Positions 20,101-26,100 of a DNA stretch of 64,000 bases are shown one piece after another. Positions within the stretch are counted from its first letter, which is position 1. Each line of letters begins with the position of its first letter. Under the pieces are notes generated by a model. It saw nothing but the letters and a program-made list of their open reading frames with translations, made no database searches and was not told the origin of the DNA. This stretch comes from Owenia fusiformis. Its lineage: Eukaryota > Annelida > Polychaeta > Sabellida > Oweniidae. The DNA is taken from positions 6,345,815 to 6,409,814 of the forward strand of contig CAIIXF020000003.1 of the NCBI GenBank assembly GCA_903813345.2. The letters run 5' to 3'. Position numbers and translations under genes: made by a program.

Positions 20101-23100
20101 CCTTAAAAGTGACAACATTGCAGTTACCATGGAAACCAGCATTTTAAGAACTTTTCCACCTGTTCTGAATGTTTTTAGTCATCAAGCATGTTAGTGCAGA
20201 AGTTAAGCTTTCCAACGGTACCAAGATTAGCCAGTAACCTTTCGGAGGTTTAATCTCTTCAAATATTGCCGGCTGCTACTCGTCTAATATGGTTGGTCTA
20301 TTACTAAATATTATCTAAGAGTATTGATCATGTAAAAACATAGAGGTATTTTATGGGAGCGATGTACTAGAGTAGAAATAATCTTAATCATTAAAAATAA
20401 TCATTAAATATTCAAAATTCAGTCAAAGTGATGTCATATTTGAAATCTACATGTAAAAGTACATCTAGAAATATGGTATATCAACTTTTTAAAAATTTTT
20501 TGAAAATGTGACTTCTAGTTTGGGTTGATTCCCCACAGACCCCATCTTACAGAATCACAGAAAGTGAAATATCTTTTCTTGTATTGGACAGATAACATTT
20601 TCTTTTACTGCACATATTTTAATTTGCATAACTAGTAGATACAATCATAAGGGTTATATGAAAATTGAACCACTAAAACAGATGTAATTTAAGTTAAAGG
20701 GAACTTTCTAATATACTCGCCATGCTATCTGACCCGAACGAGCCACCTGGTGGTGAAACTGGTAACTATCTACTCGCATCTGCATTATTGAATATGGGTT
20801 TTATTTCGAGGGACAATATGATATTTCCTGAGGGCTTGGGATTGCCAGAAGAAAATATCATATTGTCCCAAGGATAAGAACAATTAGTTTCAGCCTATAA
20901 GAAGGCATAAATGATTTTTTGTAAGGGAACACTTCAATGCTCAATAGTTTTTTTTATAATGTAAATAGCTAAGGTCATGGTATCCTCTAAATCCTCTATA
21001 GGGCTACTATATGCAGTACTATTTGCACAATCAGAAGTTGACATACTGGCTACAGTGAAAGAATGGAGAGTAGTGATTGTGTAAAGAATACAGTTCTTAT
21101 CATTTCAACATGCATAAAAAACAACTCAATATAACATCATGCGATATTAATCAAAATGGCGACAGCAATAGATGAACATGTTAAAGAGACATTAAAATGT
21201 ACGCTGTGTTATGAAACATTAACAGACCCAAGGACACTGCCTTGTATGCACACATATTGTTGTAAATGTCTGGATGAATTAGAAAAGATCACGGAAGGAG
21301 TGAAATACTGTCTAAGCTGCCCAGAATGTAGACAAGTTCATACAATACCTGAAGGCGGAGTGGCTAAATTTAAGGTCAACTTCACTACAAGTTCATTAGT
21401 GGATCTATTCAAAGCCTTGGATGTTGGGGACAATCCTTACTGTACATTATGTAAGAATGACCAAATAGACATTGATGCAATAACAAAATGTGTACAATGT
21501 AATGAGCAGCTGTGTAAAGACTGTGACAGATATCACACAAAGTTTCATAAAGGTCACACAGTACTTGATCTTACAGGTGACAAAGCACAAGATACAACCA
21601 CCCCACTAAAGATCATAAAACAGCGTGTGGTGTTTTGCGAAACACATAAGATGACTCCACTTGAGATATACTGTAAGGTGGACCAATGTGCTGTATGTGC
21701 GACATGTTATGTAATCAACCATTCTGGGCACGAATGTGTCGATATCCATAAGGCTGTTGAGGATAACATAACCCTGATTGATGAACTCATAGAGAAAGGT
21801 GAGCAGCTTGTTGAAACGTATGAAAAAGCAATACAAAGTACTCATACCAAGAAGGATAAAATGGAACAAGAAGCAGATGATGTCACACATGAACTGAACA
21901 ATGATATGAACGTGGCTATTCAAGCCATTCGTGATAAATACACCAAAGACATCAACTATGTGGCTGAAAAAAGAGCCACATGTGCCAAGCAAGCAGTGGC
22001 ACATCTGGGACATCTACACATGCAAAAGGCCACCACTGAGAGCACAATGATACAACTGCATACATTAAAACAACATGGACACGATTCACAGCTAGCGAAC
22101 ATAGCCAAAGACATCACATCAAAATTAAAAGAATGGTCCAATCCAAAATCCTCTGAATTTGATGAGAACATTACATTCAACATCAACAGGGGTGAGGTGT
22201 TTGAGGATAGAATAATGTTTGGAAACGTGAACATTAACACCCTTAAAAATACAATAGAAATACTTGAAAAGTCAATAGTATTAAAGAAGGTGGAATCAAA
22301 TAGAAATGTCAGCGTTTTATTTAGTGTTACCAAAAAGTGGGTCCAATGGACCCCACGGTAAAAAAAAATGGAGTCCAAACCAAAAAAAGTGGGTCCGAAA
22401 AATTAAAGGCCTGAAACTAATTAAAAATGAAAAAATTGGATAAAGCAAATTCAAGTACTCGTTTTTTTCTAAAGTAACACAAATGTAAGGCATTTTTGTC
22501 TTTTTTACCATGTAGTCTTATGGAGTGATTTTATATTTACTAAACTTACAACTACATAAACATATTTATTGTAACATTTCATAATGTTCATTATCATCAT
22601 TGTCAATACATGAAGGATGTAATGATAATTCAATTTTTCCTCTTTTTATCTAAATCTGTTCAAATAATACACATACATGTACTGTAGGTACATACTAGCT
22701 CAGACAATTTTGTAATTTAGACCCTCTCTGGTGCATTCTGGCATATCTCGGCAAAAAATTTCCAATAATAATATTTATAATACATAATTGATTGTAATTA
22801 ATTTTTTTCTTAATTACTTTGTTTTTCAATGTTGCCCCTTGTTCCTCCTCACTCTGATGTAAATTAATAAACTCAATATTCCTTTCTGACACATTATCAA
22901 TCTCAATGAAATATAAAGATCAACATTCAATAGTTTGATATGTATTTTTGACTTGTAATATTTTATTTGTTTTCAAATGTTGCCCTTTGTGCTTTCTCAC
23001 TATGATGTAAGATAATGCCAAAAAGATCAACTGTATTAATTAAACAGTTTGTTGTCAAGTTTATGTGTAGGCTAATTGTTAATAATAGTATCCATTGAAA

Positions 23101-26100
23101 GATGGCAGGACAGTGATAAAGGTTTTTTGCTACTGAACCATTAATCTCAAAGCAATGATGTTTTGGTTTTAGAGGTCAATCAAAATGGTGGCCGAATTAC
23201 AGTAAGATAATTATTTCAGTGTTTCTCTGAAACACTGCTGATTATCTGCCTATTATACTTAGATTTTGTCTTCACAAGGTAGGCCAATTTATATTCTTTC
23301 ATTTGTACTACTGTTTGAGTGTTCTAAGAGGTAAGGTTTTTGGAAATTGCTGTAAAAATAAAGTGCGTCCAAGGGACTCTGGAGTTTTTTATTTTTCCGT
23401 CCAACATTATTTTTTGGGGTCCATCTAATGTAAGGACGGCGTTAAATAAAACGTAGAATGTTCATGATTTAGCTGTGACGAGTAACAATGAAACTATCGC
23501 AAATGGGCGAAATACATCAGCTATAGTCTTTGACAAGGACTTTACTTTGAAGACGACATTTGGTAAAGGATTTTACCATGCTACTACAAAAGGCAAAGAG
23601 ATATATTTTACCAGTGGAACTGATGAAGTCCACATATACAACCAGGATGGTACACACAGCAGAGATATGAAGATACCCCTCCTAGGAGAATGTAGGGGTA
23701 TTGCTGTTAACTCAGGAGGAGAATTTGTTATATGTGACAAAAGAACTAAGACAGTATACCATGTAGATAGTGCTACTGATAAAATACTGACCAAGGCTGC
23801 ACAAGGTACCTTCAGAATGCCACTCAATGTAGCCACCAATAGCAACGATGAAGTGATAGTATCTGATTATCTAGCACACTGTATAGTGGGCATGACCAGA
23901 GATGGCAATGAGCTGTTAAGGTATGGCACTGAAGGTAGTGGACAGAACCAACTGAATAATCCCAGGGGTCTATGTACAGACATGGCTGACAATATCATCG
24001 TGGCTGACACCAACAACCACAGAGTACACTTGTTAGGACCAGATGGCGAGTTTATCAAATATCTCCTGACATCATCAGATGGATTGCAGTACCCTCAAGC
24101 TGTAGCAGTGGACAATGAGGGACAACTGTTAGTAGGAGAATTCAGAAGGAATATCTGGGTAGTGAAATACAGAGAGTAAATATGTGTTAGTATGTTTACA
24201 GAAATGATCACAAAATAACAGCTCCTACATGAAAACTGACATACCGTATTGATGACCATACACTCAAATGTGCTTAATGGAATAAACTGTTACATAACAT
24301 TAGCATAGCCAGGATCCAAAATACAAAGGCAAAATTAATAATATATGCACCAATTGTGACTAATGCGACTAGTATATGACAATACCCAAAAGTAGCAACA
24401 TTTTGAATTTGTGCAGGACTTTTCTTTGGAAATGATTGAAAATACTTGTAGTAGGCTTGTCAGATGGATTCATGAAAATATATACCCTTTTTAGAAACCC
24501 TACCACATTTACCACTTGCTACATCAAGGAAGCTATAAAGACATATTGGCTAGACTGATGGTTACATAGGTTGCTCCAGATAAAATTGGATTAACTTATT
24601 CCTATATTTGGAAAACTTGAATATTGATTGTACTCAACATACAGTATCTACAACCTATGAAATCATCAATCTGATCAAGATTTTTTTATATAGCAAAAGG
24701 TGGCAGGGTTTATTGGAAAGGTCTGTTGAAGCGGTATTCTTGAAATATGAGCAAATATAAATTTTAAAAACAAAATTGGTGCTTTTTGAATTTGAGTGAA
24801 ATTTGGAACCACTAATAATGTTCCCAAATAAGTACATGTAACAGTTACACAGATGTCTAACAATGAGCCACTTATCATTGAATTGGGTAGTTTATTCAAC
24901 TTTTCCAGAATCTGAGAATAGAATTATGAAAAAGTAATGACCACCATAACTGTGATATTTCACTAGTAACTCTTTACACAAAGCAGAGCATGGGGATTCT
25001 TTGATGTATTTCTATTTTGACAAAATTGTAATGTGTGGACAACTGGACATGTGCCTCGTGATATACATGTAGGGTTAATTTGAAAAACAGGATCAAAGCA
25101 TAATGCTAAGGGTTGATGTGAAAAGGTCACACCACCTTGGTGGGAATTGAACCCACAACCTCCTCATTACATGTTGTTGTAATGTGTGGACATGTGCCTC
25201 CTATTATGGTGGAACTCCCTTTTTAATGATGTGTTAATGAGATTCAAGAAGAATTAAATTAACTAGGGTAGAACACAATATAAGACATTTGTGATTAAGC
25301 TTTGTCAGCCTCTTTTTTACTAAAAATGCTGATCAGTCTGGTGTTTGTCAAAACATATTCTTTACAAGTCTGTTGCAGTAATAAAGTAGAATGACAGTGC
25401 TTAAAGTTCCCTGTCTTAAGTTTGAAAATATTTTTTTATCATTCATTTACTATTTGTCATGACTTAAAAAGTCATTTTAGAGATTTTTGAAAAAAAAAAT
25501 TATTTTGAAAAAAAAGTTGTGAGCATTTCAGTTCTCAAATATTCAAATTTCCTCCATTTTTCAAAAAAAGTTGAACTTTTTTAATCATCAAATATTTCTT
25601 AATTGCATATCAAAAAAGATTATCTTTTTAACACCAATGCAAAGATTGAACAAAGGACACTCTATTTCAATAATAAAATGCCATATTTAATGGGCCACTT
25701 CAATGTTTTCGCATATCAAAAATATTTTGCAACATTAGTGATGTCACTAAGGTAGCAAAAACTTTCAAATTTTTTTTTCGATGTCAATCTTTTCTAAATT
25801 GCTAGATTTCAATAATAAACCAATGTTAATTGTCTAACCAGGTTAAAATGAAGAATATATTATGTTTTAGATATCACTGTACCATTGGTTTCTATGAGAA
25901 CTAAAATTTTGAAACGCATTTCCAGGTGAACCGTTTGGTAGATCAATTTGAAATTTTCAGGGATGATTCTTAGTATGAAAATCTAGAACTGATTAGTTTT
26001 TTGGCATTCTGGATAAATGTCAAGGCAGCCATATTGGATTTTCCGTCTTAAAATCTTGCCTGTAAAGTCTTGTCTACGCATTTTTAGGTGAACCGTTTGA

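Follow-up and report, generated by a model that had tools for sequence, protein, structure and literature searches.

A recent DNA transposon insertion as the probable cause of truncation in a TRIM-NHL gene

The window, which is the whole stretch of 64,000 nucleotides analysed here, contains a TRIM-NHL coding sequence that is interrupted by an element of 1147 bp. Very probably, a non-autonomous cut-and-paste DNA transposon was inserted here recently and truncated the gene, which belongs to a birth-and-death family. The preliminary description had put forward a newly born intron of the introner type and had named as the alternative an allele that a recent insertion had disrupted. The alternative is the better reading, and an introner is not supported by the evidence. 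The locus would then be unremarkable, one gene of a large family broken by a mobile element. Were the element spliced out, a DNA transposon would have given rise to an intron in an animal genome, and introners have rarely been reported from animals.

The interrupted coding sequence

The TRIM-NHL coding sequence is read on the plus strand from an ATG at 21156 to a stop codon at 24177-24179. Its 5' half (21156-22309), identified by Pfam and by its identity to paralogues, encodes the RING, the B-box and a middle region and is interrupted at its 3' end. Pfam recognised zf-B_box with 2.3e-9 and, weakly, zf-C3HC4 (RING) with 2.5e-4. The 3' half (23457-24179) is an open reading frame of 240 codons plus the stop and encodes the NHL repeats (Pfam NHL, 8.7e-22). 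When the flanks were joined with a single AATGT, as in an empty site, 623 codons free of stops were obtained, and removal of 22308-23456 gave 624 codons, also free of stops and with one additional Asn. The claim that both precise excision and splicing would keep the frame was therefore correct. Neither half contains a stop or a frameshift. This would also fit a gene that is still spliced; the same is expected after a very recent insertion.

Without splicing, translation would run for 17 codons past the AAT at 22305-22307 and terminate at the first in-frame stop in the element, a TAA at 22359-22361 (ORF 21135-22361, plus strand). The predicted product is a RING/B-box protein of 401 aa that begins at 21156 and lacks the NHL repeats. 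Alternatively, the message might finish early at an AATAAA of the element, where two such motifs on the plus strand, at 23357-23362 and 23445-23450, were read from the sequence as candidate polyadenylation signals.

The short protein might itself be retained with a function of its own, such as that of a dominant-negative or diversified TRIM protein that has lost its NHL repeats. The open entry of the 5' frame into the element, with its stop 17 codons further on, would allow this, and in a single-exon gene, as is generally known, decay of the message cannot be triggered by an exon junction further downstream. On the other side, a copy as young as this one (3 changes in 1147 positions, see below) leaves no time for a signal of conservation to build up, and we consider such a use improbable, though less so than the other departures from a simple truncation that are discussed below.

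TRIM-NHL relatives

The genome that was searched comprises 498 Mb in 525 contigs, with the window on contig C3. Among the matches listed, at least 150 correspond to the 5' half and at least 108 to the 3' half. The 5' half is 56-75% identical in amino acid sequence, across most of its length, to paralogues that have a single long frame. Twelve paralogues were fetched and aligned, followed by four further relatives (L058, L059, L060 and L061). All 12 paralogues have one open frame through the insertion point and no insert, and their alignment places this point in a linker of variable length directly before the first NHL repeat. Among the four further relatives, L058 reads through the site, L060 has a frame break near it, and L059 and L061 are missing residues there; a large insert at the insertion point of the window was seen in none of the four. 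The frame break of L060 (G000:C5:26818400-26820600) is located at residue 388.

Sixteen other loci among the matches listed are at least 55% identical to the 5' half. Eight of them are single frames of 627-662 aa, seven are damaged by stops or frame breaks or are incomplete, and one (L058) has an intron-like insert. As judged from the sequences of these loci, the host gene is therefore a member of a single-exon, birth-and-death TRIM-NHL family. Since damaged members are common in the family, the loss of a member seems to be tolerated.

The damage in seven of these 16 relatives would also suit a locus that was non-functional already before the insertion. The absence of stops and frameshifts from both halves speaks against this, as does nonsynonymous change, which was well below synonymous change in both halves when compared with eight intact paralogues; an earlier loss of function is thus extremely improbable. 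Relaxed constraint on the NHL half was considered and rejected. The dN/dS of the NHL half exceeded that of the 5' half against all eight paralogues, yet the same was observed in two pairs of paralogues without the insert, so that the difference is uninformative. An allele with the empty site was not found in the assembly, where the matches listed for each half, apart from the gene itself, reach at most 71-75% identity.

The inserted element and its family

The element (22310-23456, plus strand) was delimited by its genome matches, the ORF list and a six-frame translation. It begins with CAGCGTTTTATTTA, which is the left terminal inverted repeat of 14 bp (22310-22323), and finishes with TAAATAAAACGTAG. 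The right terminal inverted repeat (23443-23456) reads CTACGTTTTATTTA on the minus strand, and 12 of the 14 positions match the left end. On both sides the element is flanked by a target duplication, AATGT, at 22305-22309 and 23457-23461 (both plus strand). No ORF of its own of 80 aa or more was present in the ORF list or in the six-frame translation. Internally, the element contains a direct repeat of 58 nt (22811-22868 and 22959-23016) whose copies are 79% alike.

At least 62 places in the genome match the element; this and the following copy counts are lower bounds that derive from the best 40 of 401 candidates scored. At least eight other copies have the form of the window copy. Five are near complete (L001-L005) and 98-99% identical to the window copy, with L005 lacking the first 11 bases, and three (L007, L026 and L027) are split by later inserts. 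The same ends were found on shorter and longer forms (L010-L013, L016-L019) and on the more diverged L021 and L031. The search with the left end returned 23 loci including the window (24 matches, one locus appearing twice), and the search with the right end returned 40 matches, 13 of which were short and of 81-82%. Adjoining a right-end copy, at L024 (G000:C8:32923500-32928238), frames resembling a LINE endonuclease and reverse transcriptase were noticed by eye.

The two-ended copies, 18 with the window included, were inspected for target duplications. L028 was left out of this set, as BLAST did not support its right end. An exact duplication was observed in 14 of the 18, with 5 bp in 12 copies and 6 bp in two, and was absent in L011 (4 of 5 positions matching), L016, L021 and L031. 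The coordinates of an insert of 1147 bp with inverted ends and a 5-bp AATGT duplication, as claimed before, were confirmed. The other copies of the same form and the exact duplications at identical element boundaries show that the pattern exceeds chance. The 14-bp inverted end alone was not enriched in the genome (59 places versus 67 for the control), and the case for a transposon therefore rests on the longer ends and the target duplications.

Compared with the majority sequence of eight near-complete or long copies, the window copy differs at 3 of 1147 positions and the other copies at 1 to 7, showing that the burst of transposition was young. The recent age that had been proposed for the insertion is supported by this result. 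In its interior, at about 392-996, the element matches 17 loci at 86-95%, for example L015 (G000:C13:442412-444620), where the searches with the two ends gave neither end of the element; the interior is therefore common to another repeat family.

The class of the transposon

The family shows inverted repeats, duplications of constant length and dispersed copies that share their boundaries, as non-autonomous cut-and-paste elements do. It resembles MITE-like elements of this kind in its inverted repeats, its constant duplication of 5-6 bp and the lack of a transposase, and also in the several size forms with the same ends and the near-identical young copies. It differs in its length, since the 1147 bp of the window element are long for a MITE. 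We propose that a staggered cut of 5 bp, as the duplications suggest, opened the linker that precedes the first NHL repeat in the single-exon gene, so that 5 bp of the target were duplicated, and that the element would have been mobilised in trans by a separate transposase.

A transposase between matching ends was not detected by the searches with the end sequences or in 11 fetched regions. Likewise, no autonomous partner was found in eight regions chosen for an exact 14-mer or a weak match to an end, and six of these eight have only the 14-mer in common with the element. The long copies L021 and L031 contain no transposase-like frame. One further region, L051 (G000:C3:29571098-29575598), has retroelement-like frames with a reverse transcriptase and a tyrosine recombinase, as recognised by eye, and is unrelated to the element.

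The ends of hAT elements begin with CAG. Their usual target duplication is 8 bp long, and some members make duplications of 5 or 6 bp. The ends of the window element also start with CAG, but its duplications of 5-6 bp differ from the usual 8 bp of hAT, and no hAT gene was found between or near its matching ends. A search for hAT gave 138 C-terminal matches in the genome, and none of them was closer than about 20 kb to any listed element end, as checked by eye.

Comparison with introners

The preliminary description had seen in the insert the design of a DNA-transposon introner, in which the GT at 22308-22309 of the left duplication is the donor and the TAG at 23454-23456 is the acceptor. In PMC9860276, introners are defined by at least four similar introns whose similarity reaches both splice boundaries. 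The same paper describes introners that, in some cases, recruit the donor from the target duplication and carry the acceptor in the element, and some that add codons (Fig. 2B and 2F); introners are reported there from only two animal groups. With these DNA-transposon introners, as portrayed in PMC9860276, the window element shares a duplication that could give the GT, an end that gives the AG and a frame that is kept. It differs from them in that no set of similar introns accompanies it, its GT is not constant among the targets and its splice sites are weak.

It had been suggested to look for other copies that sit in coding exons. Other copies exist, but none was found in an evident coding exon. 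The flanks of the copies (700 bp, shorter for some) were joined and evaluated by their frames alone, a procedure that could miss short exons. Within this limit, no frame longer than 128 aa runs across any of the 17 other two-ended copies, compared with 466 aa for the window copy under the same 700-bp limit, and the spanning frames of eight of the 17 gave no Pfam match. Several similar introns in unrelated genes, as expected for introners, were therefore not observed, with 0 of 17 other copies interrupting a long frame, and the element does not act as an intron-maker.

A reliable supply of splice sites, also expected for introners, was not seen either. The TAG is constant at the end of the element, and the target contributes the donor GT. 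Only two of the 14 exact duplications (those of the window and L018) end in GT, which is about chance level, showing that the element neither brings a donor nor picks GT targets. With no other copy in a long frame, a target-specific GT and two weak splice sites, as detailed below, the introner was rejected as the leading reading.

Splice sites

The proposed splice sites were scored with a model from 14 introns that had been inferred from six chaperonin loci with frame rules requiring GT-AG; one of the 14, with an acceptor of -11.3, was probably mis-inferred. The proposed donor AAT/GTCAGC scored 3.4 bits and the proposed acceptor 2.1 bits. In a leave-one-out comparison, donor and acceptor each exceeded one of the 14 reference introns and were below 13, and the single reference acceptor below the proposed one was that of the probably mis-inferred intron. 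In sample, the proposed donor was below all 14 references and the proposed acceptor above one. The sum of donor and acceptor was 5.5, compared with 9.4-24.1 in the 13 reference introns other than the probably mis-inferred one. Both splice sites are weak, as the preliminary description had already noted for the donor. Locally, the donor ranked 22nd among 88 GTs and the acceptor 26th among 75 AGs, and far stronger acceptors than the proposed TAG are present in the interior of the element.

When the in-frame GT-AG pairs around the insert were scored, the proposed pair was 19th of 221. Other in-frame splices were also considered. All 221 pairs keep the NHL stop, and the best of them (22217 to 23614) scored 10.8 and costs 83 codons. 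It exceeded only two of the 14 leave-one-out reference sums, and the other splices are therefore unconvincing.

Taken together, these results suggest that splicing of the insert from the TRIM-NHL transcript is unlikely. A new intron at 22308-23456 with an additional Asn, whether a DNA-transposon introner or a one-off gain, would be favoured by the presence of GT and AG, by the frame of 624 codons, by the rank of the pair and by published introners of the same design in PMC9860276. The low bit scores of both sites and of their sum, the chance-level frequency of terminal GT in the duplications and the 17 other copies outside long frames argue against it, and we regard such an intron as very improbable.

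An intron-like insert in a related gene

Weak splice sites can be used. A newborn intron that has its GT by chance and is spliced weakly, in part of the transcripts and in frame with one additional Asn, is conceivable, and the paralogue L058 appears to have gained a well-formed intron; nevertheless, this variant would also have a slight probability compared with the truncation by a recent transposon insertion.

The insert of L058 (G000:C6:25582700-25585200, minus strand) is located at C6:25583122-25583716, in the NHL part. It consists of 595 bp of unique sequence, bounded on each side by a copy of the 9-bp AGGTATGGC. When it was treated as a GT-AG intron of 604 nt (CAG/GTATGG ... TTTTAG/G), its removal resulted in an open frame of 532 aa. 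No other full-length copy of the insert was found among the best 40 of 719 candidates scored; being single-copy among these candidates, it does not form a repeat family. Judged by these features, L058 seems a much better candidate for intron gain than the window element, and within the same TRIM-NHL family a search for intron gain would hold more promise there.
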